Below, one piece after another: positions 397 to 14,795 of a DNA stretch of 20,349 nt (the first letter of the stretch is position 1; each line of letters begins with the position of its first letter). The notes beneath the pieces are model-generated. The model was not told the DNA's origin. It searched no databases and saw only the letters and a list, made by a program, of their open reading frames with translations. The position numbers were made by a program, and so were the translations under genes. Origin of the DNA: a virus; IMG/VR virus record IMGVR_UViG_3300049491_000532, positions 1-20,349 of that record; one strand, given 5' to 3'.

Positions 397-653
397 GTCT
401 TGCAGTCCGCGAAGTCCTCCGCGTGCTGCAAGGTGTCGCGGTCCATCTTGGTGGCGTAGTCAGGTTGCCATGTCCGGGCCACCTCCAGCACCAAGCGCAA
501 ATGCTTTTCCAACAGTTCGGCGCGGCTCTGCGCATCGACTTCCCACCCTTGGATCATCTCGATTACCGAAACGGGGTCCGTGTGCGCGTCAGTGCAGTCA
601 AGGTGCGCGCGGATGCGCTGCAATTCGGCATACATCGCTGGCGTCATGCTCAT
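342..653 (-). CDS. Hypothetical protein whose C-terminus is encoded by attC A
   Basis: This 103-residue leftward gene starts at the ATG at 653-651, overlapping the stop of gene 653-883 (TGATG). An AAGGAG ribosome site lies eight bases upstream, inside that gene. The body is a predicted helical soluble protein (MTPAMYAELQ, then a second helix around SRAELLEKHLRLVLEVARTW). No known domain is recognised. About residue 85 the frame enters attC A, so the tail (TPNVEVTG and onward) is translated recombination-site DNA and the stop TAG lies in the attC loop. The original gene probably lost its own stop when it was joined to the attC. It is translationally coupled to its upstream neighbour in the leftward operon. 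Confidence 0.7.
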   Translation of the reverse strand: MSMTPAMYAELQRIRAHLDCTDAHTDPVSVIEMIQGWEVDAQSRAELLEKHLRLVLEVARTWQPDYATKMDRDTLQHAEDFADCKTPNVEVTGKPPRGAAGAR

Positions 654-883
654 CAGGCGTTCTCCTTCATTTGGTCCAGCCAGTCGAAGTAGGATTCCGG
701 GTCGCTCACAAGCGCGGCGGTGCACAGCAGCATGTAGCAGGCGCGAGCCATCGTGTCCGCGCGCTGCGGCCCAGCCGCTTTCGCCATGCGGTTTGCCAGT
801 CGGACAGCATCGTCTAATAGCTCCGGCACCGGCCGCCCAACTGGTTGGTCAACCGGACTTGCGCCGGCAAGGGTGTCATTCAT
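653..883 (-). CDS. Small hypothetical protein, family shared with the right arm
   Basis: This 76-residue leftward gene starts at the ATG at 883-881, which overlaps the stop of gene 880-1179 in an ATGA junction. AGGAG lies five bases upstream. Both the ribosome site and the start codon sit in the apical loop of attC B, so roughly the first 15 residues are translated attC sequence. The rest (GRPVPELLDDAVRLANRMAKAA, then a helical C-terminus rich in aromatic and acidic residues) looks like a compact helical protein of unknown function. A degraded relative at 14679-14795 shares two 17-base identical blocks with it and also begins right beside an attC core, so this family seems to travel with attC sites. 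Confidence 0.7.
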   Translation of the reverse strand: MNDTLAGASPVDQPVGRPVPELLDDAVRLANRMAKAAGPQRADTMARACYMLLCTAALVSDPESYFDWLDQMKENA

Positions 884-928
884 CGTTGCTCCTGTGTGGG
901 CGCAAGCCGGTTACCGCCGACGTTAGCC
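835..928 (+). repeat. attC site B
   Basis: The left core GCCCAAC is at 835-841 and the right core GTTAGCC at 922-928 (one deviation from GTTRRRY). The inner stem GTCAACCGGACTTGCGCC pairs with GGCGCAAGCCGGTTACC, with extra bases on the left arm only, so polarity is plus. The whole site is coding on the minus strand. Its loop contains AGGAG and the ATGA junction that ends gene 880-1179 and starts gene 653-883. The left core complements the right core of site A (GTTGGGC), as expected for the cassette 391-922. Confidence 0.85.
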
Positions 929-1179
929 GGCTTGCTGCGGTTCACCAGTTCGCGCATCAAGTCCATGCCGGCATCAGCCAGTGTGAGCTTGCGAAGCTCG
1001 TTTTCTGGCAGCGCCAGCACTTCGGTGCGGCGAAGCATGCGCACAGCGCACTTTCCGTGATACAGGCCACCGACCGGAAACCCCGGCAGAGTCAGCATTC
1101 GGTCGAGATGTCCCAAGCCGTTGCAAATGGCGCATAGCCGCAGCTTGCGAACGTCGTGTGCAGTAAATTGTTTGCTCAT
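880..1179 (-). CDS. Hypothetical protein with a CxxC zinc-binding-like motif
   Basis: This leftward 99-residue gene starts at the ATG at 1179-1177. The region between it and the divergent gene at 1245 is only 65 bases, and no clear ribosome site is seen. Residues 16-19 are CAIC followed by NGLGH, with a third cysteine near residue 45 (HGKCAVRML), a layout suggestive of a small metal-binding fold; this is inference. The last 20 or so residues (ANVGGNRLAPTQEQR) are encoded by attC B. The stop TGA overlaps the start of gene 653-883, so the three genes 880-1179, 653-883 and 342-653 form one coupled leftward unit across two attC sites. No characterised family is recognised. Confidence 0.7.
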   Translation of the reverse strand: MSKQFTAHDVRKLRLCAICNGLGHLDRMLTLPGFPVGGLYHGKCAVRMLRRTEVLALPENELRKLTLADAGMDLMRELVNRSKPANVGGNRLAPTQEQR

Positions 1180-1232
1180 GTCGATTATTGAATCACGTCA
1201 ACATCAAGCGCGCAAGTGGTTTTTGCATCACC

Positions 1233-1238
1233 TATACT
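1233..1238 (+). promoter_or_regulatory. Candidate -10 element for a leaderless cassette gene
   Basis: TATACT lies six bases before the ATG at 1245 and no ribosome site is present, so a transcript started from it would begin almost at the start codon. No good -35 element is visible at the usual distance, hence the low confidence. Confidence 0.3.
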
Positions 1239-1244
1239 CGCGGG

Positions 1245-1409
1245 ATGGAAGAACCGAAGAACAAGGGCGGTCGCCCGCCGAAGCCAGAAGCCGAACGCCT
1301 GGTGCAGCGGTCAATCCGCTTGCCGCCTGCGCTGTGGGCCAAGATCGACACCCACGGCCTGGAGTGGTTGCGCGCGGTCATTCAGCGCGCTCGTCCACCA
1401 GCCGGCTAA
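1245..1409 (+). CDS. Small basic protein, cassette gene in normal orientation
   Basis: This 54-residue rightward gene begins MEEPKNKGGRPPKPEAER and continues with a predicted helix (IRLPPALWAKIDTHGLEWLRAVIQRA). The opening KNKGGRPP resembles the AT-hook-like, basic start seen on many small ribbon-helix-helix or plasmid-type DNA-binding proteins, and the RSIRLPPALWAKID stretch fits a ribbon-helix-helix strand and helix. DNA binding is therefore a reasonable inference. The stop TAA is part of the left core GGCTAAC of attC C, the classical arrangement for an integron cassette gene. It runs opposite to the leftward operon around it. The start is chosen at 1245 because the composition upstream is not gene-like. 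Confidence 0.75.
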   Translation: MEEPKNKGGRPPKPEAERLVQRSIRLPPALWAKIDTHGLEWLRAVIQRARPPAG

Positions 1410-1462
1410 CTGGTCGCTCAAGCGGACCGCCTTCGGCGGCCCGCTTAGCTCCAACGTTAGGC
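1404..1462 (+). repeat. attC site C, canonical 59-base element
   Basis: The left core GGCTAAC is at 1404-1410 and the right core GTTAGGC at 1456-1462, exactly 59 bases. The inner arms GCTCAAGCGGACCGCC and GGCGGCCCGCTTAGC pair around a TTC loop, with extra unpaired bases on the left arm only. Spacer and arms closely resemble the attC of aadA cassettes. The left core complements the right core of site B (GTTAGCC), although both deviate from the consensus at the matching position. That compensatory pair is strong evidence for a true cassette at 923-1456. Confidence 0.92.
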
Positions 1463-1550
1463 GTCGAAGAAGCCACAGTTTCACTCCGCGACTACGTTGC
1501 AAGCAATGTTTGCGCTTGACTTTGCGCCTTGCGCCTTCAACATCGAGAAA

Positions 1551-1635
1551 GACGGCGACAGGATTCGAACCTGCGATGTCGCGTTAGCGAAGCTCCTTGC
1601 CGGGAAACTGCAATCGACCACTCTGCCACGCCGTC
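1551..1635 (-). tRNA. Serine-type (class II) tRNA-like gene, apparent GGC anticodon
   Basis: On the minus strand the 85 bases fold as a 7-bp acceptor (GACGGCG with CGCCGTC), a D arm GCAGAGTGGTCGATTGC typical of serine tRNAs, a 5-bp anticodon stem (GTTTC with GGAGC, two wobble pairs) around CCGGCAA, a 4-bp variable-arm hairpin (TCGC-TAAC-GCGA), and a T arm with TTCGAAT. The anticodon at the normal position is GGC (1599-1601), which reads alanine codons, and base 33 is C instead of the near-universal U. No CCA end is encoded. It is either a degenerate tRNA-Ser copy or an altered tRNA with a serine body. It lies downstream of gene 1678-2139 in the same cassette. Confidence 0.65.
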
Positions 1636-1643
1636 AAAACCCA

Positions 1644-1670
1644 GAACGCCCGGATGACCTCCGGGCGTTC
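1644..1670 (-). terminator. Rho-independent terminator after the HARE-HTH-like gene
   Basis: A perfect 10-bp stem GAACGCCCGG / CCGGGCGTTC with a 7-base loop is followed on the minus strand by TGGGTTTT. It lies eight bases beyond the stop of gene 1678-2139 and just before the tRNA-like gene. The T run is short. Confidence 0.65.
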
Positions 1671-1677
1671 GTCCTTC

Positions 1678-2139
1678 TTAAGCCCCCTTCTTGAGCATCC
1701 ACTTCTTCTCGTCGTCATGCGTCACTAAGCTTGAGTGACTCAAGTGGGCCGACAAGTTTGCCTTCGGGTCCTTGCCCCGAACGACAATGCCTTTCGCGGC
1801 AAGCCGCTCGAAGATCTCGTTCCGCGTCAACCCTCCGCCAGCCTCGCGTAGAACCTCGACAATGGCGGGCTCCAACTTTGGGGTTCGCTTAGGCTGGAGC
1901 GAGAAACGCTGACCGTTCGTCAGAAAGTTGAGTACCTCGCCATCCGCTTGCGCCGGTCGCGCGACCTCCGACCGACCTTCGGTTTGAGGCTCTTCATCTA
2001 CGTCCTCCCCTTCGAAAGCAACGGCAACGCGCTCCATCCGCGCGAACAGTTCAGCATCAATCAGCGCAAGCTGCTCGTTTTGTTTCGCGATCTCGGCCAC
2101 TATGGCCCTGCGCCTACGAATGAGTTGCTGGAGCTTCAT
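1678..2139 (-). CDS. HARE-HTH-like winged-helix protein
   Basis: This leftward gene encodes 153 residues if it starts at the ATG at 2139, which has GAGG seven bases upstream; an ATG at 2145 is too close to the ribosome site. Residues 1-40 form a basic coiled coil (LIRRRRAIVAEIAKQNEQLALIDAELFARM) and residues 41-88 an acidic then basic linker. Residues 90-153 form a winged-helix module with the pattern EVLREAGGGLTRNEIF...GIVVRGKDPKANLSAHLSH, close to the HARE-HTH family found on restriction and chromatin-associated proteins. DNA binding is likely; the target is unknown. It has its own promoter (2159-2187) and terminator (1644-1670), so it can be expressed independently of the phage operon, as a lysogenically expressed cargo gene would be. 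Confidence 0.8.
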   Translation of the reverse strand: MKLQQLIRRRRAIVAEIAKQNEQLALIDAELFARMERVAVAFEGEDVDEEPQTEGRSEVARPAQADGEVLNFLTNGQRFSLQPKRTPKLEPAIVEVLREAGGGLTRNEIFERLAAKGIVVRGKDPKANLSAHLSHSSLVTHDDEKKWMLKKGA

Positions 2140-2158
2140 TGCCATTCCTCTGCCACGC

Positions 2159-2187
2159 ACTGTATCGCAATCCAGTAGTTGCCACAA
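2159..2187 (-). promoter_or_regulatory. Sigma70-type promoter for the HARE-HTH-like gene
   Basis: Read on the minus strand, TTGTGG (2187-2182) and TACAGT (2164-2159) are separated by 17 bases, about 20 bases upstream of the start codon at 2139. Confidence 0.5.
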
Positions 2188-2237
2188 CACCACTTAATCC
2201 CGACTTTTGCGCTCAACTATTATCGCGGCTAGTCGAC

Positions 2238-2363
2238 GCCTAACCCTTCGCTCGAGCCGACCCGCTCCGGCAGGCCAGCCCGGCCGCCCAGTGCGGCAAG
2301 CCATGTTGCACCGGTCGGCCGGGCAGTCCTGCCTCCACGGTCGGCTCAGCTCAAACGTTAGGC
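2238..2363 (+). repeat. attC site D
   Basis: The left core GCCTAAC is at 2238-2244 and the right core GTTAGGC at 2357-2363 (126 bases). GCTCGAGCCGACC pairs with GGTCGGCTCAGC, with one extra base on the left arm. The spacers closely follow those of aadA-type sites. The long central part is GC-rich and partly self-complementary. The right core supplies the TAA stop of the leftward gene 2358-2786. Confidence 0.88.
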
Positions 2364-2786
2364 CCCAAGGCCCACATCGTGCACGGCGCGACAGTCAGGG
2401 CAGCCGGGCGGCAGGCCACACTTCACGCATCGGCCGGCGTTGTCATTGCCGGTGAACTGGCAGTCCGTGATTGCAGAGTCAATGCACCGCAGGCCACGCT
2501 GCACGTACTCGCGCACCGACTCTGCGCCCATGCGCTCGCGCCAGATTGGGTCGATCAACTGCCGAGCGTCATTGATCCCGCGCAGCAGCGTCTCGATTTG
2601 CTGGCTCTTTCGCACGCGCCACATGCGCTCGCCCGTCGCCGCGTCTTGCCATGACTCGTAGCCTTTTGGCCCGGCCACGGCTGCACGCAGTCGGTAAATC
2701 TCGGCCCACAATTCCGCCTCGGTAGCGTTGGGGCCTAACCCTTCCATCGAGCCGACCTTTGCCGGCGTAGTTCCTTCAGTGCTCAC
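2358..2786 (-). CDS. Hypothetical protein with C-terminal cysteine cluster, both ends encoded by attC DNA
   Basis: This 142-residue leftward gene starts with GTG at 2786, four bases after AAAGGA. Start and ribosome site lie in the apical loop of attC E, so the first 17 or so residues (up to SMEGLGP) are translated attC sequence. The stop TAA is in the right core of attC D. Residues 20-100 are helical and charged (EAELWAEIYRLRAAVAG, then RMWRVRKSQQIETLLRG). Near the end CVKCGLPPGCPDC suggests a small zinc knuckle. No characterised family is recognised. An internal ATG (Met14) could be an alternative start, but it has a poorer ribosome site. It occupies the cassette 2358-2828 in reverse orientation. 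Confidence 0.75.
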   Translation of the reverse strand: MSTEGTTPAKVGSMEGLGPNATEAELWAEIYRLRAAVAGPKGYESWQDAATGERMWRVRKSQQIETLLRGINDARQLIDPIWRERMGAESVREYVQRGLRCIDSAITDCQFTGNDNAGRCVKCGLPPGCPDCRAVHDVGLGA

Positions 2787-2834
2787 GGTGTCCTTTCTTG
2801 CGCCGTCAAAGGCGGCTCATGTCAAACGTTAGGG
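2733..2834 (+). repeat. attC site E
   Basis: The left core GCCTAAC is at 2733-2739 and the right core GTTAGGG at 2828-2834. The inner stem ATCGAGCCGACCTTTG pairs with CAAAGGCGGCTCATG, leaving extra bases on the left arm only. The loop holds the AAAGGA ribosome site and GTG start of the leftward gene 2358-2786. Its right core GTTAGGG, off consensus at the last base, is matched by the equally off-consensus left core CCCTAAC of site F. Confidence 0.88.
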
Positions 2835-2865
2835 CGCTTAGGGTTTGCGAGCATCAAAACTCCCC

Positions 2866-2894
2866 TTGCATAGTCCGCATGATGCGGCTATAGT
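2866..2894 (+). promoter_or_regulatory. Sigma70-type promoter inside the cassette 2829-3490
   Basis: TTGCAT (2866-2871) and TATAGT (2889-2894) are separated by exactly 17 bases. They lie 45 bases upstream of the ATG at 2939, with AGGAG in between. This is a strong match, so the cassette carries its own promoter. Confidence 0.75.
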
Positions 2895-2938
2895 CTAGTC
2901 ATCGGTTGCAGGTCGCAGCCGACAACCAGGAGACCGCA

Positions 2939-3199
2939 ATGACTACCGCCACCACCTACACCGATCCCGTCGTTATCGAGCGCATGCCTGACCATCTGCG
3001 CGGGTCGCATCGCGCCGCTAGAAACTGGGGCAGCTACCCGCACAACGGCGCCGAGCGCGTCATCGTCGAGCGCTCGGATACCGAACAGTGGTGCTACGAC
3101 GCCGAAAAAGACGCACACTCCGGCATCGAGGCCGACGAATACGATCGCATCTTGCGGGACGCGGCCCAGGCCGACTTCGAGCGCTACAAGGCTGAGTGA
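2939..3199 (+). CDS. Small acidic protein, first gene of a self-promoted two-gene cassette
   Basis: This 86-residue rightward gene starts at the ATG at 2939, seven bases after AGGAG. The product is polar and acidic, with several aromatic residues (MPDHLRGSHRAARNWGSYPHNG, then QWCYDAEKDAHSGIEADEYD) and a helical C-terminus. No membrane segment, signal peptide or known motif is seen. Its stop overlaps the start of the next gene by one base (TGATG), so both are translated together. The pair runs in the attC direction, opposite to the phage operon, under its own promoter. Self-transcribed two-gene cassettes are often toxin-antitoxin modules; the layout allows that here, but nothing in the sequence proves it. 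Confidence 0.78.
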   Translation: MTTATTYTDPVVIERMPDHLRGSHRAARNWGSYPHNGAERVIVERSDTEQWCYDAEKDAHSGIEADEYDRILRDAAQADFERYKAE

Positions 3200-3399
3200 T
3201 GCCAGGCCGCCCGTCAGCGGCGGCCGAGAAGGCCGCCAAATGGCTCGCAGCAGGCATCGCCGCCGGCCTGCCGCGCACGCACCCAGAGGCCGCACGTCGG
3301 TTCGGGCTGTCGCTCGACCAGACCGCGCGAATCTGGGCCAAACTGGGCCAGCCACCATTGGCGCGCAGCCGTCCGCGCGCTCCGGCCACAGCGCCCTAA
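3199..3399 (+). CDS. Small helix-turn-helix-like protein, second gene of the cassette
   Basis: This 66-residue rightward gene starts at the ATG at 3199, overlapping the previous stop. The sequence is basic and helical. HPEAARRFGLSLDQTARIWAKLG (about residues 28-50) has the spacing of a small helix-turn-helix, so DNA binding is plausible. A basic, proline-rich tail follows. The TAA stop is part of the left core CCCTAAC of attC F, the classical end of a cassette gene. As the co-translated partner of the acidic protein before it, it could be a regulator or one half of a toxin-antitoxin-like pair. This is inference. Confidence 0.72.
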   Translation: MPGRPSAAAEKAAKWLAAGIAAGLPRTHPEAARRFGLSLDQTARIWAKLGQPPLARSRPRAPATAP

Positions 3400-3496
3400 C
3401 ACGCCGGTCGAGGCGAGAGCCAACAGCAGGCGCCGCTGTGCCGCTCCGGTCAGTTCGTCTCATGCTGTTGGCTCCGCCTCACCGGCAACGTTAGGC
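3394..3496 (+). repeat. attC site F
   Basis: The left core CCCTAAC is at 3394-3400 and the right core GTTAGGC at 3490-3496. A long stem, CGAGGCGAGAGCCAACAGCA with TGCTGTTGGCTCCGCCTC, leaves extra bases on the left arm only. Both outer cores supply stop codons: TAA of the rightward gene 3199-3399 on the left and TAA of the leftward gene 3491-3742 on the right. Confidence 0.9.
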
Positions 3497-3742
3497 CTCA
3501 TCTTCATCCGCCGCGTGTTCAATCGGCGCTGTGCACCAGAACGGTTCTTCTTCGCCTGGTGCATCATTCGGGCGATCCTCGACCCCATACACTGAATCCA
3601 GTTCATCGGCCAGAATCACATCCCCGCAGCGCGCCAGCCAAACGTGTCTGACAGTGGATCGTGGTTCACCATCCCACACATACCGAACGTGAGCGTCGTC
3701 AGGCATTGCCGCAAGTAACGCCAACAGTTTATTTACTCGCAT
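3491..3742 (-). CDS. Small acidic hypothetical protein
   Basis: This 83-residue leftward gene starts at the ATG at 3742-3740, with AAAGGA eight bases upstream. It opens MRVNKLLALLAAMPDDAHVRYVWDGEP, a pattern familiar from small phage proteins in which a short helix precedes a beta-rich part, and ends in an acidic tail (EHAADEDEA). No catalytic residues or membrane segments are visible. The stop TAA is part of the right core of attC F, so the gene fills the cassette 3491-3861 in reverse orientation. Function unknown. Confidence 0.75.
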   Translation of the reverse strand: MRVNKLLALLAAMPDDAHVRYVWDGEPRSTVRHVWLARCGDVILADELDSVYGVEDRPNDAPGEEEPFWCTAPIEHAADEDEA

Positions 3743-3767
3743 CTCTGCATCCTTTCGCGCAAATGAG

Positions 3768-3867
3768 TTCTAACAATTCCATCGAACGGACACACAACGG
3801 CGGGTGCCGAAAGTATGTTTCTCATAGAGCTGTCACGCCGTTGTGTGCCGCTCATGTCACGTTAGGC
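3768..3867 (+). repeat. attC site G, last of the left array
   Basis: The left core TTCTAAC is at 3768-3774 and the right core GTTAGGC at 3861-3867. The stem ATCGAACGGACACACAACGG pairs with CCGTTGTGTGCCGCTCATG, with extra bases on the left arm only. The left core does not complement the right core of site F, the only one of six junctions that fails. The right core provides the TAA stop of the phage gene 3862-4131, so this is the boundary between the cassette array and the phage operon. Confidence 0.88.
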
Positions 3868-4131
3868 CTTCTCGAACACATGGAACACCAGCGAGCCGCC
3901 GCGCATCTGGTATGTGCCGGCGTACTGCCCAGGGTCGCCGTCTGGCATTGGGTTTCCGGTGCCGTAGGTGGCGAAGTTGCGATGCACGATGGGCGCTTTC
4001 TCGTCAACCAGCGCCCACAGTTGCGGCATGTCACCCTGCACCTGTACTGTCAACAGTTTCGCGCCTTCCGGGATCGGCAGGCTTTGCAGGTCGAGCAATT
4101 GCAGCGACCATTTCCAGATTCGCATCTTCAC
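3862..4131 (-). CDS. DUF7352-like phage protein
   Basis: This 89-residue leftward gene starts with GTG at 4131, overlapping the methyltransferase stop (GTGA), with AGGAGG seven bases upstream. The pattern IWKWSLQLLDLQSLPIPEGAKLL, then LWALVDEKAP, then YGTGNPMP and a final LVFHVFE, matches the small beta-rich phage proteins that I recall as the DUF7352 family; the match is from memory. The role of that family is unknown. The stop TAA is contributed by the right core of attC G, so the last codons of a conserved phage gene border the cassette array. It is co-transcribed with the methyltransferase. Confidence 0.78.
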   Translation of the reverse strand: MKMRIWKWSLQLLDLQSLPIPEGAKLLTVQVQGDMPQLWALVDEKAPIVHRNFATYGTGNPMPDGDPGQYAGTYQMRGGSLVFHVFEKA

Positions 4132-4823
4132 AACAGCCCCTCCTGCACAGGCTGTCGCGGTTTTTCTGGCGGTAGTAGCGTGCCCTGGGCCTGGGCGCGG
4201 CTGATCCTCTCGCAGGCGATGTCGAAATACTTGCGCTCGCGTTCGATGCCGGTGAACGCCAGCCCGAGCTGCACGCAGGCCACGCCAGTGCTAGCGCTGC
4301 CCATGAAAGGGTCCAGCACTGTGGCGGGCCTGCCGGCTTGGTCCAAGCACCACGCCATCAGCGGAACGGGCTTCTGTGTCGGGTGGTAGTGCTTGCCTTC
4401 GGTCGCCAGTTGCCCATGGCTGTAGTCGAAAACTCGGTTCGGCTTCTCCAGGTTCGTCCAGGCATGCTCGGCTTCGCTACCGCTCCAGTTGCGAATGATC
4501 TTGTTCCACGACAGCAGGCACCGCGTCGACTGCATCAGGTAGAACTGGCCGCCCCAGACCACAGCCGTGTCGGCCTGCGCAAGCGCCATCAGCACGCCAT
4601 CGTCCACCGTGTTCCGGTCCCAGATTTCCGCGCCGGCCGCGTAGTGCTTGCTCCAATATTGCGGGCCGCTCGTCCTCGAAGCGCCGGGCCGGTGCAGCAG
4701 GTCGCCCAGGCCATACGGAGGGTCAGTCAGCACTAGGTCAAAGCGCGGAAGCAGCGGCAGCACCTCTCGGCAGTCCCCGTGCCACAGTTCAGCGTTCCCG
4801 ATCACTACTTTCTCTGCCATCAT
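4128..4823 (-). CDS. DNA methyltransferase, beta class (N6-adenine or N4-cytosine)
   Basis: This 231-residue protein is an S-adenosylmethionine-dependent DNA amino-methyltransferase, predicted to modify phage and host DNA, probably against host restriction. The catalytic motif DPPY is at residues 34-37. HPTQKP follows at 147-152 and the AdoMet-binding motif DPFMGSASTG at 171-180. The order catalytic then AdoMet motif is that of the beta class. Length fits solitary phage enzymes, and no restriction gene lies nearby. Two adjacent ATGs (4823 and 4820) are possible starts. The stop overlaps the next gene. Target sequence and methylated base cannot be read from the sequence. Confidence 0.93.
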   Translation of the reverse strand: MMAEKVVIGNAELWHGDCREVLPLLPRFDLVLTDPPYGLGDLLHRPGASRTSGPQYWSKHYAAGAEIWDRNTVDDGVLMALAQADTAVVWGGQFYLMQSTRCLLSWNKIIRNWSGSEAEHAWTNLEKPNRVFDYSHGQLATEGKHYHPTQKPVPLMAWCLDQAGRPATVLDPFMGSASTGVACVQLGLAFTGIERERKYFDIACERISRAQAQGTLLPPEKPRQPVQEGLL

Positions 4824-4845
4824 TTGCTTTCTGTTCGTGCCGGGT

Positions 4846-5070
4846 TCATGGATGCTCTGGCGTTTTAAGAGGGTTCGCAGCCCACAGTATTATTTTGTTA
4901 TTGCCGCGCTCGACTATGGTGGACTCGTAGAGCAGACCTTGAGTTTTCAACCATTGAAGGCTTTCCAGCACATCGATGCGGGACATATTCATCATGGTTT
5001 GCAACTCCCCCGTTGTCTGGGGGCACTCGAGGATGATGCGATGGAGTCGGCCGCACGCTGCGTAGTTCAT
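4846..5070 (-). CDS. Small winged-helix DNA-binding protein
   Basis: This 74-residue leftward gene starts at the ATG at 5070, overlapping the stop of the preceding gene (ATGA). The order CGRLHRIILECPQTTGELQTMMNMSRIDVLESLQWLKTQGLLYE is a typical winged helix: helix, turn, recognition helix, then wing strands (IIVERGNNKIILWAANP-like). It probably acts as a small transcription factor or DNA-binding accessory in the early leftward operon. A longer open frame across the neighbouring gene exists but is an overlap artefact. It is translationally coupled to the larger two-HTH regulator upstream, and the pair may work together. Confidence 0.8.
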   Translation of the reverse strand: MNYAACGRLHRIILECPQTTGELQTMMNMSRIDVLESLQWLKTQGLLYESTIVERGNNKIILWAANPLKTPEHP

Positions 5071-5696
5071 GCCGGCATCCGATTCGAGTTTGCGGCCAAG
5101 GCGTTGTTGATGAGTTGCTGCCGAGCGATTGACCTTCGCGCGCGCGCGTATCGGGCTGCGTACTCGCTCTGTCGGAGCTTCTTCGGCTTGGGCACGTCGT
5201 TGCGGTCCACGGCGATCTCGAAATAGCGGGTGTAGTCGCCAACCTTGGCTTGGCGGTCCCACATGCAGATCCGAACGATGCGGGCTGCTCGAGCCAGGCG
5301 GATCGCCGACAGGCAGGTGGAGCGGGACGAGCCGGAGGCCTCCTGGAGGTCGGCCATGCTGACCGGGTGACTGAACAACAGGTCGACCATCTTGAGGAAG
5401 GCCACCATTTCCGAGCGGACGACGGGGCGGACGCACGATCGGAATACGCGCACGCACTCGGGCATCGGCGCCTCGCCGTCAGGCCCGATCAGCCAGAAAG
5501 CCGCCGGCCTGCCCTTGCACGTTGCCTTGTAGTGGTCGACGTGCACCGCCCGGCCCTGCATCTGGCGCAGCACTTTGCTGATTGTGTTCTCCCTAGAGTC
5601 CAGTTCGGCCGCGATCTGGCCGATGGTCATCGGGATGCGGGCCACGGAGGCTAGAACGCGCACGTAGAGCTGAACGCATCGGAGGTGGGATGCCAT
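5067..5696 (-). CDS. Protein with two predicted helix-turn-helix domains
   Basis: This 209-residue leftward gene starts at the ATG at 5696, overlapping the exonuclease stop (TGATG). Residues 18-60 resemble a winged helix (MTIGQIAAELDSRENTISKVLRQMQ). A second similar unit lies at about 100-140 (LLFSHPVSMADLQEASGSSRSTCLSAIRLARAARIV). The C-terminus is basic (LRQSEYAARYARARRSIARQQ). The duplicated MarR/IclR-like architecture points to a DNA-binding regulator. It sits in the recombination operon of the phage, between the nuclease and the methyltransferase. I do not recognise a named phage regulator. Confidence 0.75.
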   Translation of the reverse strand: MASHLRCVQLYVRVLASVARIPMTIGQIAAELDSRENTISKVLRQMQGRAVHVDHYKATCKGRPAAFWLIGPDGEAPMPECVRVFRSCVRPVVRSEMVAFLKMVDLLFSHPVSMADLQEASGSSRSTCLSAIRLARAARIVRICMWDRQAKVGDYTRYFEIAVDRNDVPKPKKLRQSEYAARYARARRSIARQQLINNALAANSNRMPA

Positions 5697-7271: not shown

Positions 7272-7287
7272 GAGGTTTCCTTGTGGT

Positions 7288-8131: not shown

Positions 8132-8143
8132 GCTCAGCTCCAG

Positions 8144-9058: not shown

Positions 9059-9101
9059 CTTGGGCTCCTTTCGCGCCGCTGAAGTGCGTCGCGTTGGAGC
9101 C

Positions 9102-9140: not shown

Positions 9141-9173
9141 TAGGCAAGTATGTAACAGTCCGGCGGCGGGCGC

Positions 9174-9197
9174 AAAAAGGCCCGCTCGCGGCTGGCC
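9174..9197 (-). terminator. Rho-independent terminator of the repressor transcript
   Basis: On the minus strand a GGCC...GGCC stem, extended by GC pairs around a GCGA loop, is followed by TTTTT. It lies downstream of gene 9231-9488 and just before the PL operators, so it keeps the repressor transcript from running into the left operon. A tract of nine G sits at about 9222-9230. Confidence 0.6.
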
Positions 9198-9230
9198 TGC
9201 TTTGGCTTTTGTGGCCGGGGTGGGGGGGGG

Positions 9231-9958: not shown

Positions 9959-9984
9959 CCCGACACGGTAGTTGAAAGACCCCG

Positions 9985-10023
9985 CCGAATTCGGTAGACA
10001 CACGCAACCGAATTCGGTAGGAT
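9985..10023 (+). promoter_or_regulatory. PR promoter with two operators
   Basis: On the plus strand, -35 TAGACA (9995-10000) and -10 TAGGAT (10018-10023) are separated by 17 bases. The palindrome CCGAATTCGG is present at 9985-9994, touching the -35 from upstream, and at 10008-10017, touching the -10. This is base-for-base the same layout as PL, again with 23 bases between operator starts. A protein bound at either operator would block RNA polymerase. The repressor promoter PRM must overlap this region on the other strand, but I cannot define its elements. Confidence 0.87.
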
Positions 10024-10031
10024 GGCTGCTC

Positions 10032-10247
10032 ATGAGTAGCTCAAACATCACGACAACCGCTGAAGTTCGCGCGGCGCTCGAATCCCTCGGCCACGCGCAG
10101 TTGCAAGAGCTGGCTGAACTGTCAGGGGTCTCATTCACGACGCTGTGGAGCATCCGCTCTGGCGAGCGGAAGAACCCGGGCATCCAGACCGTTGCCGACT
10201 TCATGGCCTGTATCGAGCAGGCGCGCGGCGGCGCCACCACCACATAG
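10032..10247 (+). CDS. Cro-like helix-turn-helix regulator
   Basis: This 71-residue rightward gene is the first on the PR transcript. AEVRAALESLGHAQLQELAELSGVSFTTLWSIRSGERKNPGIQTV (residues 10-55) contains a typical XRE helix-turn-helix, with the recognition helix around SFTTLWSIRSGE. Size, position and divergence from the repressor fit a Cro protein that occupies the same operators to drive lytic growth. The ATG lies only nine bases after the -10 element of PR and no ribosome site precedes it, so the mRNA would be nearly leaderless. Confidence 0.88.
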   Translation: MSSSNITTTAEVRAALESLGHAQLQELAELSGVSFTTLWSIRSGERKNPGIQTVADFMACIEQARGGATTT

Positions 10248-10272
10248 ACCGAGAAGGGCCAGACCCCGTGCG

Positions 10273-10431
10273 TCATCGCCCAGAGCCAGCTCGCAGCGCG
10301 AGGCTTTCCATCTGCCGAGCCGCCGTGAAGCGCATTTCCAGCGCGAGCCGCCTCGCAAGCTGGAGCATGCACCTCACAAGCATGGCTCGCACCGCCTGGT
10401 CGGCCCAGTCCGAATCGGTTTGTCGTTCCAT
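10273..10431 (-). CDS. Small leftward helical protein facing cro
   Basis: This 52-residue minus-strand gene starts at the ATG at 10431, seven bases after AAAGG. The product is helical and amphipathic (ADQAVRAMLVRCMLQLARRLALEMRF, then ARQMESLALR) and has natural composition, unlike the other frames here. It runs toward cro and ends 26 bases from the cro stop, so the two genes converge. Function unknown. A transcript reading on would be antisense to cro. Confidence 0.6.
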   Translation of the reverse strand: MERQTDSDWADQAVRAMLVRCMLQLARRLALEMRFTAARQMESLALRAGSGR

Positions 10432-10441
10432 GGGCAGCCTT

Positions 10442-10540
10442 TCAGGCGTCACGAACTCTCTTGGCGTCGGCGCACAGCCGACGCCATCTCTCCGCTACCA
10501 AGCCGAAGGCCGCAACACCCGGGAAAACGGCCTCGCTCAT
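10442..10540 (-). CDS. Possible small leftward gene upstream of 10273-10431
   Basis: This 32-residue frame starts at the ATG at 10540 (MSEAVFPGVAAFGLVAERW), with GGA seven bases upstream. It ends ten bases before the start of gene 10273-10431. It ends in a basic helix (RWRRLCADAKRVRDA). Spacing suggests a two-gene leftward unit divergent from the ribbon-helix-helix-like gene at 10584. The shortness keeps confidence moderate. Confidence 0.5.
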   Translation of the reverse strand: MSEAVFPGVAAFGLVAERWRRLCADAKRVRDA

Positions 10541-10583
10541 GGCGGTGTCCAAGTGAAATGGCCGAAGAGCCGTTGTGGTGTCT

Positions 10584-10826
10584 ATGGGAACAGCAATGGG
10601 GGACGACCTTTTGGCGGGCGATGACAGAGTTGAACTTCGAACCGAGTACCCGCGCGAGTTCGTCGACGTGCTGGATGCCGTCGTCATCCACCGCAACCGG
10701 AAGCATCCGAACTCGACTTCGCGCACCACCGTACTCACGGAGTTGCTGCGCGATTTCGTCGACGACGTGTCGGGCCTGACCGATACGGTTTATCTGGTCA
10801 AGAGAGGCAAGGGGGTTGATCGATGA
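10584..10826 (+). CDS. Ribbon-helix-helix-like early regulator
   Basis: This rightward gene encodes 80 residues from the ATG at 10584. A second ATG at 10596 has GGAA upstream, so the start is uncertain. VELRTEYPREFVDVLDAVVIHRN (a strand, then helix 1) and STSRTTVLTELLRDFVDDV (helix 2 with the usual SR.TVL pattern) fit an Arc/MetJ-type ribbon-helix-helix. It lies downstream of PR where lambda has cII, so a regulatory role is likely, though it is not CII-like in sequence. The stop overlaps the next gene (ATGA). Confidence 0.7.
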   Translation: MGTAMGDDLLAGDDRVELRTEYPREFVDVLDAVVIHRNRKHPNSTSRTTVLTELLRDFVDDVSGLTDTVYLVKRGKGVDR

Positions 10827-10948
10827 CGACACGCCGAGAGAGTAGGTGTCGCCTGGCGATTCTTCAATCCGGCAGGGTGCCGGTTGAATCGGCCCCCTAC
10901 GGTGAAGCCCCCAGCGCACAGACGACCACGCGGGAGCCCAAGGCATGA
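10823..10948 (+). CDS. Small hypothetical protein
   Basis: This 41-residue rightward gene begins MTTRRESRCRLAILQSG and starts and ends in ATGA overlaps with its neighbours. Those overlaps, and its unbroken frame in a tightly packed operon, are the support. It is basic at the start and polar at the end. No motif is recognised. Confidence 0.6.
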   Translation: MTTRRESRCRLAILQSGRVPVESAPYGEAPSAQTTTREPKA

Positions 10949-11325
10949 GACAGCTTTCGCTCGTCGATCCGATCGACCAGTCCCGAAGCGCTGCGCGGGC
11001 GGAGGCGCTGGAAGCCTCGAAGCGCCGCGGCGGCCGACTTGCCGATTGCGCAGGCGACAAGGCCGGCGGTGAATGGGTCGAGGCCGCAGTCGCCTCTCTG
11101 CGCGTGCTCGCTGTTGCTGCTTACCCAGGAATGTTCAGCATCGAGCAGGCCCGCCTCGTGATTCATCAGTCGCTGCAACGCCCGCATGACCTTCGCGCGT
11201 GGGGCCGCGTCACGCAGCTCTCCGTCAGGCGCGGGTTCATCGCCCGCGTCAAGGGCAAGACGCTCCCGGCAGCGAGCAGCCATGGCAGCGAGAAGCCATG
11301 CTTCACGAAGGGGCCGAACGCATGA
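10945..11325 (+). CDS. Putative winged-helix protein before the replication gene
   Basis: This 126-residue rightward gene starts in an ATGA overlap. Residues 1-55 are polar and basic. Residues 58-105 (AYPGMFSIEQARLVIHQSL, then DLRAWGRVTQLSVRRGFIARVKG) resemble a small winged helix seen in phage replication-module proteins. The C-terminus is basic and low in complexity. DNA binding is likely. Its role may be in origin function or regulation, since it directly precedes the O-like gene, whose start overlaps its stop. Confidence 0.7.
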   Translation: MRQLSLVDPIDQSRSAARAEALEASKRRGGRLADCAGDKAGGEWVEAAVASLRVLAVAAYPGMFSIEQARLVIHQSLQRPHDLRAWGRVTQLSVRRGFIARVKGKTLPAASSHGSEKPCFTKGPNA

Positions 11326-12104
11326 GCACAGCCATCATGGGCCTGTGCTGGCCCATGCAGATGCCGCCGACGCCAAAGGCGGTTTTGATCTCACTCGCCG
11401 ATCAGGCGAACGACCACGGGTCGTGCTGGCCGTCGATGAGCGGCATTGCCGAGCGCACATGCTTTGGCAGAACAGCCGTGATCGAGGCAATCAAGTGGCT
11501 CGAAGAAGCCGGCCTTCTTTCGATCGAGAAGAACGGCGGCAGGACGAACCGCTATCAACTCGACCTCAACCGGTTGCGCCAGCGCGAGATTGAACCAGTA
11601 CGCCAAGCGTACCAGTCCGGCAAACGGACCAGTCCGACAAACGGACATACCAGTCCGTCAGGCGGACTACCACCAGTCCGGGAGGCGGACCAACCAGTCC
11701 GGGAGGCGGACCCGAACCGTCAAGAACCGTCAATAGAACCAAAGAGAAAGAAGAAGCCTTCCGTTTCCGTGACGGTTCTGGTCGAAGCCGGATTCGACGA
11801 GGCCACCGCGGCTGAGTTCATCTCCCACAAGGTCGGCGTGAAAGCGCCACTCACAGAGCGGGCATGGAAGGACCACCTTGCCGAGTCGCGCAAGGCTGGA
11901 TGGTCGCCAGTAGCAGCGGCCGAAAAGGTCATGGCGCGGAACTGGAAAGGGTTCGATGCGAAGTACGTTTCTGGCGATCGCGGCGGAGGGTCGCAGAGCC
12001 GCAAGGAAACCCAACTCGAAACCGCAGCCCTCATGACCGGCGCAACGCGCCAACACCAGACCGGAGAGGTGATCGATGTCACACCCAGAATCCTCGCTTC
12101 CTGA
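11322..12104 (+). CDS. O-like replication initiator
   Basis: This 260-residue rightward gene starts in an ATGA overlap. Residues 10-85 are a winged helix of the phage replication-initiator type (PTPKAVLISLADQANDHGSCWPSMSGIAERTCFGRTAVIEAIKWLEEAGLL in pattern). Residues 90-145 are a low-complexity linker (PVREADQ repeats), and its DNA is an array of inverted repeats. Residues 148-220 form a folded C-terminal domain (VTVLVEAGFDEATAAEFISHKV, then KAGWSPVAAAEKVMARNWKGF), common in phage O-type proteins. As in lambda, the protein probably binds the iterons within its own gene and recruits the loader encoded next. Confidence 0.87.
   Translation: MSTAIMGLCWPMQMPPTPKAVLISLADQANDHGSCWPSMSGIAERTCFGRTAVIEAIKWLEEAGLLSIEKNGGRTNRYQLDLNRLRQREIEPVRQAYQSGKRTSPTNGHTSPSGGLPPVREADQPVREADPNRQEPSIEPKRKKKPSVSVTVLVEAGFDEATAAEFISHKVGVKAPLTERAWKDHLAESRKAGWSPVAAAEKVMARNWKGFDAKYVSGDRGGGSQSRKETQLETAALMTGATRQHQTGEVIDVTPRILAS
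11598..11765 (+). other. Predicted phage replication origin: six iterons plus a purine/AT-rich tract
   Basis: Five copies of the inverted repeat GTCCG-N5-CGGAC start at 11615, 11632, 11653, 11676 and 11697, each preceded by CCA. A diverged copy, GTACG-N5-CGTAC, starts at 11598. Steps are 17, 17, 21, 23 and 21 bases, close to two helical turns. A purine- and AT-rich stretch follows at about 11713-11765 (cgaaccgtcaagaaccgtca, then aagagaaagaagaag). Iterons plus an adjacent easily melted tract inside an initiator gene is the lambda origin plan. Confidence 0.83.
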
Positions 12105-12564
12105 CCGCTGGATCGAGCGCATCTGGTCCGTTATGCGGGCCAACTACGGCGCGAGTTTCGATCGGCAGTGGGAGTGCCCTGCCGGCACTGATCCGGTCGC
12201 GCACGTTGCAGAGATGCGGCTTCACTGGGGTCGCGAATTGCGCTACTACCAGCAGAGCCCGCACGCGATCGCCTACGCGCTAGAGCACCTGCCGGAGTTC
12301 CCGCCGAACCTGCCGCAGTTCAAGGCACTTTGCGTGCGCAGGCCTGACCACCCGGAGGTGAAGCAACTTCCGCCGCCGCCTGCCGACCCTGCGCAACTCG
12401 AGCGAGTTCGCGTGATCGCGAAGGGAATCAGAATACGGCACGATCGCGAATGGGCTCATCGACTGGCCGAGCGCGCAAAGGCCGGCTTCCGCCTCACGAT
12501 CACCCAGCGCGACATGCTGCGCGAGGTCATGCGCGACGCCGAGTCAGAGGCGGAAGAGGCCTGA
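12076..12564 (+). CDS. P-like replication protein (helicase loader)
   Basis: This 162-residue rightward gene overlaps the end of the O-like gene by 29 bases, with GGAGAGG upstream of its ATG. RWIERIWSVMRANYGASFDRQW, WGRELRYYQQSPHAIAYALEHLP and FPPNLPQFKALC have the order and spacing of lambda P-type proteins, in which this region binds the O protein and host DnaB. A proline-rich linker (PPPPADPAQ) and a basic helical tail follow. Loading of the host helicase at the iteron origin is the expected function. No Walker ATPase motif is present, so it is not DnaC-type. Confidence 0.78.
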   Translation: MSHPESSLPDRWIERIWSVMRANYGASFDRQWECPAGTDPVAHVAEMRLHWGRELRYYQQSPHAIAYALEHLPEFPPNLPQFKALCVRRPDHPEVKQLPPPPADPAQLERVRVIAKGIRIRHDREWAHRLAERAKAGFRLTITQRDMLREVMRDAESEAEEA

Positions 12565-12567
12565 GCG

Positions 12568-12810
12568 ATGGCCGTCCCCTACCAAACCCCTCACATCCGC
12601 TGCCGCTGCGGCGGGCGGGGCATGCTGCCGCGCAACGGCGGCTTCCAGTTCACGGACAAACACCTCGAACTTGGCGTGGTCCAGCGGTACCGCATTTGCG
12701 AGGCCTGCAAGAAAAAGATGCACACCACGGAGATCGAGAGCGGCGAGCTTGCCGACCTTCGGCGCAGGGCGTTCATGTTTGAAAGAACTGTCGGGAGTGC
12801 CGCCAAATGA
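12568..12810 (+). CDS. Zinc-ribbon protein, NrdR-zinc-finger-like
   Basis: This 80-residue rightward gene begins MAVPYQTPHIRCRCGGRG and later has YRICEACKKKMHTTE. Two Cys pairs about 30 residues apart, followed by a HTTE-like end, resemble the N-terminal zinc ribbon of NrdR-type regulators. A small nucleic-acid-binding role is inferred. It lies three bases after the P-like gene and overlaps the next gene (ATGA). Confidence 0.75.
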   Translation: MAVPYQTPHIRCRCGGRGMLPRNGGFQFTDKHLELGVVQRYRICEACKKKMHTTEIESGELADLRRRAFMFERTVGSAAK

Positions 12811-13157
12811 ACTTCGGTCTTCCGCGCTGCAAAACTGGCGATATCGCGATGTTCGAGCGCGACACCGAAGGGTACGTCGGCGGCCGCCTCTACACGGTCC
12901 AGAAGGGCACGTTCTGCTACGTGGTCGGGATGGACTGGAAGTCATCGGCCAAGCTGATGTCATGGTTCTGGCACATCGCGCATTTCAAAGTTTCGTCGCC
13001 CTTCGGAGGCTATATCGGAACCGTCACTGGCGCGGCCGACGCAGTGCTGCGTCCGATCAGGCCCGGCGATGAGGATGAGGTTTTGCGCGTCGCCGGCAAG
13101 CCCGCGCAGCGGGACGATACGCTCAGGCCGAAGAAACAGGTGGAGCATTCAAGGTGA
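12807..13157 (+). CDS. Conserved phage hypothetical protein
   Basis: This 116-residue rightward gene starts in an ATGA overlap. GDIAMFERDTEGYVGGRLYTVQKG at the start looks like a small beta-barrel. The later LRPIRPGDEDEVLRVAGKP motif is one I recall from many phage hypotheticals in nin-type regions. The C-terminus is basic. No enzymatic motif is visible and the role is unknown. Confidence 0.78.
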   Translation: MNFGLPRCKTGDIAMFERDTEGYVGGRLYTVQKGTFCYVVGMDWKSSAKLMSWFWHIAHFKVSSPFGGYIGTVTGAADAVLRPIRPGDEDEVLRVAGKPAQRDDTLRPKKQVEHSR

Positions 13158-13387
13158 AATTCATCTCGTTGTCGCCACGCGAGCCGCGCTGCCGGCCCGA
13201 GCCACCGAACCAAATCCTGCACAACGACTGCGGGATGCAGGCCAAGTGCGCGAGGCGTCTGGCTGCCAACACGATCGGCGCTCTCGAGTTCGACTACTCG
13301 CGCAAGGCGCAGTCGATGATGGGCATGTTACTGTGCCATCAGTACATCGACGCATCGTCCGTCGCTCAAGTGGTGAAGCACACATGA
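13154..13387 (+). CDS. Hypothetical protein of the nin region
   Basis: This 77-residue rightward gene starts with GTG at 13154, overlapping the previous stop (GTGA). It contains cysteines in NDCGMQAKCARR, then a helical end with two methionine-rich turns. No motif is recognised. Its overlap with both neighbours, including the NinB start (ATGA), makes it a convincing gene. Confidence 0.7.
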   Translation: MKFISLSPREPRCRPEPPNQILHNDCGMQAKCARRLAANTIGALEFDYSRKAQSMMGMLLCHQYIDASSVAQVVKHT

Positions 13388-13824
13388 GCGAGCGCAAGAC
13401 CGTATACCTCGTCGGGCCGCGCCAAGTCGAAACGGCGAAGGGCTACGTCGCAGACCCGGCGCACGTCGGCTGGCGCATGGAGTTGACGCCTCCGGCAAAG
13501 AAGCGCATCCAAGAGGAAAAGTACCACGCGATGTGTGGAGACATCGCGGCGCAGTGCGAGTTCATGGGCCGGAAATGGGACACCGAAGACTGGAAACGGT
13601 TGCTTGTCGACGCGTTCGCTTCGGCCATGCGCGAGGCAGGGACGCCACTGCACCACGACGGCCGGGTGATCCCGAGCCTTGACGGCCAGCGCGTCGTGCA
13701 ACTCGGCATCCAGACGCGGAAGTTCTACGTCGCCGAGGCGTCTCAGTTCATCGAGTACCTCTTTGCCTGGGGCGCCGAGAACGGCGTCGAGTGGACAGAA
13801 CCTGCCGCGATGGAAACCATATGA
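13384..13824 (+). CDS. ninB: NinB-family recombination protein
   Basis: This 146-residue rightward gene matches lambda NinB (Orf) in length and pattern: a strand-rich start (TVYLVGPRQVETAKGYV), EMELTP-type segment WRMELTPPAKKRIQEEKYHAMCGDIA, WDTEDWKRLLVDAFASAM, and the end YVAEASQFIEYLFAWGAENGVEW. In lambda, Orf binds single-stranded DNA and helps recombination proteins load, complementing host RecFOR. It presumably supports the ERF/YqaJ pathway encoded in the left arm. Confidence 0.9.
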   Translation: MSERKTVYLVGPRQVETAKGYVADPAHVGWRMELTPPAKKRIQEEKYHAMCGDIAAQCEFMGRKWDTEDWKRLLVDAFASAMREAGTPLHHDGRVIPSLDGQRVVQLGIQTRKFYVAEASQFIEYLFAWGAENGVEWTEPAAMETI

Positions 13825-14009
13825 GCAATTGGGCCGACGACATCATGACTCTGGTCGAGGACTGCGAGAAGCGCAGCGATCGCCTCAGCGACTGGGAATG
13901 CCAATTCATTGACTCGCTGCGCCGCCAACTCGAGGAAGGCCGCCGGCCGAGCCCCAAGCAGGTCGACGCGCTCAATGACATTTGGGATAAGGCAACGGCC
14001 GGCGGTTGA
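13821..14009 (+). CDS. Small conserved nin-region protein
   Basis: This 62-residue rightward gene starts in an ATGA overlap with NinB. WADDIMTLVEDCEKRSDRLSDWECQFIDSLRRQLEEGRRPSPKQVDALNDIWDK reads as three helices. The pattern, with its W-E-FI-S and PKQ..L..IW elements, is one I recall from small phage proteins next to ninB. Function unknown. Confidence 0.75.
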   Translation: MSNWADDIMTLVEDCEKRSDRLSDWECQFIDSLRRQLEEGRRPSPKQVDALNDIWDKATAGG

Positions 14010-14011
14010 CC

Positions 14012-14200
14012 ATGAAACCCAGGAACTTCATTAAGTCCGCATTTGACGCGCTAGCGGTCGTAGTGCTCGTGGCGATCGCTCTGTTTGGAAGAGTCGCCGT
14101 GCTCGTGTTATACGGAGCGATCGTTGCATTCTTTGGCGCGCTTGTCAGCGTATTCTTTTGCGCTGTCGTGGGGGCATTCATGGCGCTCGCTGGCATCTGA
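14012..14200 (+). CDS. Small hydrophobic membrane protein
   Basis: This 62-residue rightward gene starts two bases after the previous stop. After MKPRNFIKSAFD it is almost wholly hydrophobic (ALAVVVLVAIALFGRVAVL, then GAIVAFFGALVSVFFCAVVGAFMALAGI), giving two membrane helices. It could be a small inner-membrane protein; a holin is possible by shape, but the place in the nin region argues against it. Confidence 0.72.
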   Translation: MKPRNFIKSAFDALAVVVLVAIALFGRVAVLVLYGAIVAFFGALVSVFFCAVVGAFMALAGI

Positions 14201-14201
14201 A

Positions 14202-14636
14202 ATGCTGCGCCGCTCACCCATCCAGCGCAAGCGGCCAGAGCCGCTGAAGGCGCGCGATCGATCCGACGAGTTCGCCTCGTTCGTGGTCGATCGCCAGCGC
14301 GCCGTGCTTGCGCAGGGCCTGGGTGAGCGTGCGCCGGTCGTGGTCGAGAAGGACGTGCCGCACTACAGCGAGGCGTGGCGCCGTGCGGTGGCTGGCCTGC
14401 CGAACTGCGTCAGGTGCATGCAGCCCGGTGGCGTGCAGGCGGCTCACCGAAATCAGGGCAAGTCCATGGGCAAGAAAACGGACGATTGTTTGACGGCGGC
14501 CCTATGCCAGGAGTGCCATGCCGAGATCGACCATGGCAAAGACATGACTCGAGAAGAGCGCCGCGCAGCGCTCGACGGCGCAATCATGCGCACGCTGGTG
14601 CTGCTGTTTCGCGCTGGCAAGTTGAGGGTCGCATGA
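14202..14636 (+). CDS. YbcO-type (DUF1364) putative nuclease
   Basis: This 144-residue rightward gene starts at the ATG at 14202. Residues 1-45 are basic and charged. The core carries CVRC (69-72), a conserved histidine in AAHRNQGKSMG (H82), KTDD (92-95) and ALCQECHAEIDHG (C102, C105, H106), then a helical end with MRTLVLLF. This Cys/His pattern fits the YbcO family of metal-dependent phage nucleases found in place of other nin-region endonucleases. It may process recombination or packaging intermediates. Five bases after its stop the attC-remnant patch starts. Confidence 0.82.
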   Translation: MLRRSPIQRKRPEPLKARDRSDEFASFVVDRQRAVLAQGLGERAPVVVEKDVPHYSEAWRRAVAGLPNCVRCMQPGGVQAAHRNQGKSMGKKTDDCLTAALCQECHAEIDHGKDMTREERRAALDGAIMRTLVLLFRAGKLRVA

Positions 14637-14640
14637 AAAC

Positions 14641-14672
14641 GCCTAACGTTCGAGTTGAGGCCGCCGTTGGTC
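14641..14672 (-). repeat. Decayed attC remnant
   Basis: GCCTAAC (14641-14647), the spacer GTTCGAG and arm TTGAGGCC match one end of an attC read on the minus strand. GTTGGTC (14666-14672) looks like a degenerate opposite core. The central stem is missing, so the site is probably inactive. It follows the stop of gene 14202-14636 by five bases. Confidence 0.5.
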
Positions 14673-14678
14673 CGGCCG

Positions 14679-14795
14679 GTGCCGGAGCTAGAAGACGCTG
14701 CCGCGCTACTAGCAAAGCGCATGGCGAAAGCGGCGCCAGGGCGCGTGGGCGAGCCGACGCACATGGTGGTGCGCGGCATGCTTCATGATGCCTAA
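14679..14795 (+). pseudogene. Truncated relative of gene 653-883
   Basis: The 38-codon frame from the GTG at 14679 reads VPELEDAAALLAKRMAKAAP and continues to a TAA that lies in an attC core (GCCTAAC, 14790-14796). It shares with gene 653-883 (opposite strand) the identical blocks GGCCGGTGCCGGAGCTA and CGCATGGCGAAAGCGGC. It lacks the C-terminal third and a clear ribosome site, so it is probably a remnant. As in the left arm, homology begins right next to an attC core. Confidence 0.6.

Follow-up and report, generated by a model that had tools for sequence, protein, structure and literature searches.

Two copies of one gene body beside attC sites

Our window is the whole virus record IMGVR_UViG_3300049491_000532 from IMG/VR (20,349 bases), itself a fragment cut inside an array of attC sites, the recombination sites of integron cassettes. 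Its left arm runs leftward and encodes an exonuclease and an Erf-like annealing protein, followed by rightward replication genes and, at the right end of the window, the small and large terminase subunits. Each arm holds one copy of a small gene family joined to an attC core, and in the left arm the open reading frame (ORF) begins inside the attC itself. A sequence-only reading had proposed that one ancestral cassette gene was placed into both arms and that one copy then decayed. Its observation was confirmed, and its interpretation was partly supported: the copies are homologous and both lie in attC-bounded units, but the proposal is incomplete. The two loci comprise the following features.

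835 to 928, plus strand: attC of the left copy (score 16.5), with polarity opposite to the gene; the bottom strand folds, and near-identical modules occur elsewhere with different flanks
880 to 1179, minus strand: upstream gene whose C-terminal tail, ending in NVGGNRLAPTQEQR before the stop codon, is encoded by the attC; its TGA overlaps the ATG of 653 to 883 (ATGA)
889 to 893, minus strand: Shine-Dalgarno (SD) motif AGGAG in the attC loop, 5 nucleotides before the ATG
835 to 883, minus strand: attC-encoded leader MNDTLAGASPVDQPVG(R) of 16-17 residues, with its start codon at 881 to 883, predicted to be unstructured
653 to 883, minus strand: left copy, composed of the attC leader and the family body (RPVPELLDDAVRLANRMAKAA onward), with helices predicted at residues 19-37, 39-60 and 62-75
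14641 to 14672, minus strand: attC remnant (R', spacer, L' and R''), read from the sequence, without hairpin or start codon
14661 to 14795, plus strand: right copy of the family body; the next core (GCCTAAC) supplies its terminal TAA, and its frame has no SD motif or ATG

The minus-strand gene at 653 to 883 exists as reported, as an ORF of 76 amino acids with an ATG start. In its attC, the R'' and R' boxes flank an imperfect palindrome; R'' (GCCCAAC, 835-841) fits RYYYAAC exactly, R' (GTTAGCC, 922-928) fits GTTRRRY at six of seven positions, and the cut is predicted between G922 and T923. Both extrahelical bases, an extra C and an extra A, were read in L'' of the plus strand, and because our purpose-written attC finder (criteria: R'' and R' boxes, paired inner arms and one extra C in L'') requires one of them, the polarity assignment follows partly by construction. 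The gene had been described as abutting an attC core; the adjoining is real, but the gene overlaps the attC by 49 bases and begins within it, and the part that moves with the core is a body that different attC sites can carry. The frame leaves the attC through R'', with MNDTLAGASPVDQPVG followed by R PVPELLDD, and the family proper begins at this core. In a single-sequence AlphaFold2 model, residues 1-18 formed a coil and the first helix began at residue 19, with a mean predicted local distance difference test score (pLDDT) of 52 for residues 1-10 and 64 for residues 11-20. These features suggest that the left copy is a working cassette whose translation would start in the attC.

The right frame, previously placed at 14679-14795, stays open between 14637 and its TAA (14793-14795), and 14679 is only its GTG. 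The two identical blocks attributed to the copies are also real, with lengths of 18 and 17 bases rather than 17 each (835-818 on the minus strand against 14673-14690 on the plus strand, and 790-774 against 14718-14734); both lie in one reading frame, and the protein pattern RPVPEL..LA.RMAKAA is common to the two frames. The best local DNA alignment of the copies opens at the GTTGG core in both arms and scored 83, compared with a maximum of 34 in 1000 dinucleotide-type shuffles of the right segment and 34 at the next best place in the window. A tblastn search of the record with the left protein recovered the right copy at 14661-14744 (E 1.6e-5, 68% identity, residues 13-41). Both GTTGG cores are parts of attC structures, the left one in a full attC and the right one in a remnant, in which GCCTAAC (14641-14647) and GTTGGTC (14666-14672) are spaced 18 bases apart, far too short for an attC hairpin; the finder did not detect this remnant. 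The frame opened by an ATG that overlaps the HNH gene end (14633) is not that of the body. The suspected decay of one copy was borne out by the right copy, which has no SD motif or ATG, has lost the hairpin and is cut at its 3' end by the next core. We read it as a related body whose attC lost both hairpin and start, so that it is truncated and probably untranslated. The gene at 653-883 had no match in Pfam, PHROGs or NCBIfam, and relatives of the body (residues 17-76) were found neither in viral contigs (peptide search and two-row alignment) nor in phage records or plasmids (tblastn) nor in 398 genomes. With no body relative in these collections, the two copies may stem either from duplication inside the phage or from two separate acquisitions.

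Orientation and internal starts of attC sites

The finder located eight attC sites in the window with scores of 14.5-22.0, seven on the plus strand in the left arm and one on the minus strand in the right arm, whereas the best score in 20 shuffles of the window was 10.0. All eight oppose the main transcription direction of their own arm, and of the six window cassettes, five are reversed and one is forward. The window cassettes do not show the classical layout, in which the attC lies 3' of the gene with the same polarity. The seven attC sites across 305-3867 form a cluster of attC sites lacking an integron integrase (CALIN; at least two nearby attC without intI).

Viral counts drawn through reverse-cassette genes are biased and were replaced by a sample collected with a generic attC half-site motif that is blind to gene direction. 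This motif returned at least 119 viral stretches, including at least one contig that was already known (3300025896_000201), and the viral counts below refer to the 119 stretches listed unless stated otherwise. By the finder, 87 of these held attC and 32 held none, giving 255 distinct sites after identical attC or cassettes were counted once. Among the 171 intervals between neighboring attC sites, 146 cassettes were reversed, 2 were forward and 23 gave no call, and a stricter gene score gave 120, 2 and 49, respectively. A start was scored when an SD motif and a start codon lay inside the attC and the frame remained open for at least 40 codons beyond it. Under this rule, starts were present on the bottom strand of 50 of the 255 sites, representing 41 sequence clusters, and on the top strand of none. 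Long attC sites (at least 85 bases) carried such a start in 48 of 112 cases, whereas 100 rounds of shuffling the loop interiors yielded a mean of 11.9 and a maximum of 17. The reading phase at R'' was phase 0 in 30 of the viral starts, phase 2 in 20 and phase 1 in none; the absence of phase 1 was not counted as selection because GTTAGGC gives TAG in that phase, which is at least a partial cause. When the listed sample was combined with earlier viral loci (59 start-bearing attC), the upstream frame stopped between -8 and +15 nucleotides from the start in 27, with the 4-base ATGA overlap (-4) in 13 as the commonest value among the 53 measured cases; the remaining upstream frames stopped earlier (21/59), overlapped more deeply (5/59) or were lacking (6/59).

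Chromosomal arrays displayed the opposite arrangement. This set consisted of 40 regions around IntI genes, drawn from the 182 of 399 genomes with IntI in one GTDB family, and not all 40 held attC. Their cassettes were forward in 106 cases and reversed in 24, with 96 giving no call (52, 3 and 171 with the strict score), and the polarity of attC relative to intI was as expected in 259 of the 261 sites called. Starts were scored on the bottom strand of 3 of 236 chromosomal attC sites and on the top strand of none; one of the three (L065) looks by eye like part of a kinase gene. At L107 13693-13762, where an ATG of its own follows R'', the scored start might be spurious.

Shared modules, phage integrases and the remaining window features

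The 94-base site at 835-928, termed type A, has near-identical copies in four viral contigs and three contigs of metagenome-assembled genomes (MAGs). Additional ones lie in L099 and L100, and other genomes contain relatives that have diverged more; in phage and plasmid records, type A attC had no match. In other phages and prophages, these near-identical modules of attC plus leader are joined in frame to other bodies. Across the copies, the sequences behind R'' are RPVPELL... (the left copy of the window), RPLPKRYEGG... and RPRRADVVPG..., with others behind the diverged sites. Unrelated sequence lies upstream of the cut point (A^AC) in L010, L005, L011, L013 and others, which places a mobile boundary at R'; L004 has AGC in this position. 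The AGGAG motif was retained in eight of the nine other type A copies inspected, and in the exception (L100, 2721) it is spoilt to AGAAG and the gene body is also broken. In the diverged relatives, the loops vary, while the SD motif, the start and the open frame are kept.

A two-gene cassette of ~524 bp was found in five contexts. All ten pairwise alignments start no more than ~11 bases from the cut point, and nine end at 807-816, where four of the five loci carry the core GCCCAAC. Its first gene occurs in 13 loci (11 viral loci from our own search plus L011 and L013), with a type A leader in five and an unrelated type B leader (MEQRDPPQAVGSSEGLG) in one; with a start of its own, it occupies the second position in other attC cassettes in five and stands without any attC found nearby in two. 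For this body, the refuting condition set by the sequence-only reading, homologues never beside attC, could be applied, and copies turned up both beside attC and without one. Five loci considered as uncaptured genes (L116, L119, L120, L125 and L122) were rejected, since the gene there has its own start yet is second in another attC cassette, leaving only L121 and L124 with the first gene and no attC found. In three locus pairs, the body is 82-88% identical directly after R'', while the last 60 attC bases are 57-72% identical, a jump that suggests bodies may have been re-joined to different attC at R''. In L115 (IMGVR_UViG_3300048589_000746), the leader attC is joined to the gene pair, the 3' end resembles that of L116 and R' is damaged (AGC in place of AAC); the cassette may be incompletely formed or partly lost. 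The units between attC sites noted at L112 10014-10811 and L110 14355-14456 include a DNA methyltransferase gene as well as a phage gene that has relatives in phages of Pseudomonas, Xanthomonas and Caulobacter.

IntI scored above the curated cut-off in G001 and in 4 of the 43 viral records searched, and intI and attC occur on one record in related phages, as in a complete integron. The arrays of L010, G740 and G738 point at intI and lie on the same strand as intI, and a phage tyrosine integrase neighbors intI in G740, G738, G739 and the prophage-like MAG contig L112. In a 58-row tree, six viral IntI and the IntI of two MAG loci with reversed cassettes (L053 and L112) fall on one side of a 100/99 branch; the viral IntI of L217 and L219 lie outside the main clade, and L262 and L053 are long branches that meet. 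Further viral intI genes, mostly of one clade, were noted at L257 2430-3500, L259 14126-15223 (minus strand), L261, L262 and L054 1245-2303, and several viral intI genes have a phage tyrosine integrase as neighbor and share the strand of the cassette genes. In M16-3, a published integron phage, genes adjacent to intI are oriented away from it. In the 41-kb phage record Virus Rctr41k (KX853513; L267, 4680-8813), the gene annotated as xerD encodes an IntI relative with 46.6% identity to the G740 protein, and long attC-like sites and a forward methyltransferase gene are also present.

The remaining attC sites and associated features of the window are listed below.

305 to 396, plus strand: attC at the far side of the left cassette (score 18.5)
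342 to 653, minus strand: gene also held in the left cassette
1404 to 1462, plus strand: short attC without an internal start (score 14.8)
2238 to 2363, plus strand: attC (score 14.5)
2733 to 2834, plus strand: attC with an SD motif and GTG in the loop and leader VSTEGTTPAKVGSMEGLG, which starts the gene 2358-2786 (minus strand); the second such site of the window
3394 to 3496, plus strand: attC (score 22.0)
3768 to 3867, plus strand: attC (score 18.8)
14790 to 14807, minus strand: half attC (R' and L' only) bordering the right copy, read from the sequence; it resembles the matching half of 15633-15690
15633 to 15690, minus strand: full attC of the right arm, opposite to transcription (score 15.0)
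16083 to 16089, minus strand: core-like boundary GCCCAAC after the gene 15782-16081, read from the sequence

The half attC, which was not detected by the finder, and the bare core at 16083-16089 stand at the ends of right-arm cassettes and are perhaps insertion scars or secondary sites. Between the attC sites at 1404-1462 and 2238-2363, a tRNA gene (1550-1635, minus strand) shares the interval with the gene 1678-2139 and thus represents a tRNA borne in a cassette-like unit of a phage.

A proposed translation start carried by attC and competing explanations

We consider it quite probable, judging from these sequences, that the two copies are members of a pool of mirror-image integron cassettes in temperate phages, in which the hairpin of long attC sites, such as 835-928, bears the translation start. 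In each cassette, the attC would occupy the 5' end of the gene, and the bottom strand, on which recombination takes place, would serve as the sense strand; the transcript could therefore fold as the same hairpin. Transcription of the phage operon through the attC would then produce an RNA hairpin that displays the SD motif and AUG in its loop. In nine folded RNAs, the arms pair and the SD motif and start lie in the apical region, several with weak pairing there. As the preceding gene often ends at or over the AUG (ATGA), ribosomes might be handed on, and translation would leave via L'' and R'' into the following body, to which it would add an unstructured leader. Since IntI cleaves attC at R' on the folded bottom strand, the cassette would move as a gene with its own translation start. 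Joining of bodies at R'' might involve top-strand cutting, which is a guess; the accessible text of one report describes such cutting as rarer (PMC9892861). From these patterns, we infer ribosome use of the loop starts, movement of the sites by IntI and the way in which the R'' junctions form.

Several points weigh against this explanation. No start was scored by our rule in 64 of the 112 long viral attC sites, and only 2 of the 143 short ones carried one; moreover, the viral sample was drawn with a single attC motif, among the matches listed, and genes were called with a codon model of our own making. The finder, which is tuned to proteobacterial sites rich in GC, returned no site in a Shewanella integron phage and one in a Vibrio integron phage, and it found no attC above threshold in P12002L and MW202573, phages named by Qi et al. 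No TIGR02249 match for intI was obtained in the window's own record (0 of 1), which is a fragment. Annotation places the TJE1 cassettes forward, and one forward call was made in Rctr41k; reversal is therefore not a rule for all phages. Additionally, the RNA folding results rest on energy models, and ribosomes are reportedly impeded by attC stem-loops (PMC8876359, PMC4670013). In the type A body, residue 19 is encoded by GTG or TTG, and initiation after R'' is thus conceivable.

This last point underlies an explanation that we regard as unlikely, namely that the start in attC is an annotation accident, with the true start at a GTG or TTG just after R'' and a frame kept open by chance in GC-rich DNA. 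These codons recur at the same body position in several copies, and shuffled loops alone still satisfy the start rule in ~12 of 112 sites, but 48 were observed against at most 17 in any shuffling round, and the other strand gave 0 of 255. Nor did an SD motif precede the GTG; a start close to R'' is missing from several fused bodies (L051, L100 4046-4145), the diverged loops keep SD, start and frame, and in L100 (2721) the SD motif and the reading frame were lost together. A plain duplication within the phage, through homologous recombination or template switching with the attC cores as bystanders, seems doubtful but retains some weight, given that both copies lie in one genome and none was found elsewhere. 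It does not account for homology that opens at the core in both arms, for the end of the right copy at the next core, for the differing attC halves that flank the two copies, or for the same identity jump at R'' that other bodies show across contigs.

The two remaining explanations question what the sites or the contigs are. Hairpins serving as transcription terminators or RNA processing sites, rather than integron sites, would also appear as inverted repeats between genes, and attC has been proposed to act as a weak terminator in the available text of Qi et al. (PMC9892861). This possibility is scarcely credible in view of core boxes, spacing and extrahelical bases that match attC, the polarity expected from intI in nearly all chromosomal-array sites, cassettes that change context at the cut point, and intI next to arrays. 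It is likewise very unlikely that the contigs are chromosomal integrons mis-binned as viral: proviruses in IMG/VR can contain host flanks, and L175, with 11 intervals without a gene call in 4.5 kb, resembles a host array, but the genes run opposite to those of chromosomal arrays, the arrays lie beside phage integrase, exonuclease and tail genes, and the window continues into the terminase.

The usual description of an integron cassette is a gene with attC behind it, read from an outside promoter. The phage cassettes resemble this classical form and CALINs in attC architecture, boundaries at the cut point, cassette-sized genes of unknown function and several attC without intI in the window, but they differ in that the attC carries a start and lies 5' of the gene on the opposite strand (five of the six cassettes in the window and, among the viral cassettes called in the listed stretches, 146 of 148). 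A resemblance also exists to ORF-11, ORF-17 and ORF-18 of attI1 in class 1 integrons, in which, according to the accessible part of the source, an initiation region lies in a recombination site, and an ORF across the crossover aids translation of the cassette behind (PMC8876359). Those ORFs lie in attI next to intI, one per integron, and serve the first cassette, whereas here the start lies in attC, one per cassette, moves with the cassette and encodes an N-terminus, so that its working would be ORF-11-like at most. Phage integrons and CALINs with attC and intI have been described by Qi et al. (2023), in whose assay IntI1 recombined five of six phage attC; the available text gives a typical array structure for TJE1 and PH101 and contains no mention of attC-internal starts, a reversed-cassette class or this intI clade (PMC9892861). 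Fused cassettes such as blaGES-1/aacA4, in which loss of the attC hairpin joins neighbors, recall the right-arm remnant, but such fusion, as covered by the excerpt at hand, is rare and removes attC (PMC4670013), whereas here an intact attC is the fusion partner. In the open PMC subset, no title or abstract opening was found on attC-internal start codons or on reversed phage cassettes as a class.

Beyond the reading of the two copies as mirror-image cassettes, a broader proposal appears to us evenly poised between right and wrong: that temperate phages, whose hosts are probably mainly Burkholderiales-like, possess an integron lineage of their own, with an intI clade beside the phage integrase, reversed cassettes, attC sites as portable starts and bodies re-joined at R'' in compatible phase, so that cassette birth could be read from free and captured genes. 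If true, a large phage pool with the opposite layout would change cassette annotation in viral contigs and would account for the immediate translation of genes inserted into a phage operon, and the free and attC-joined versions of the same gene would make the old question of cassette birth directly testable.

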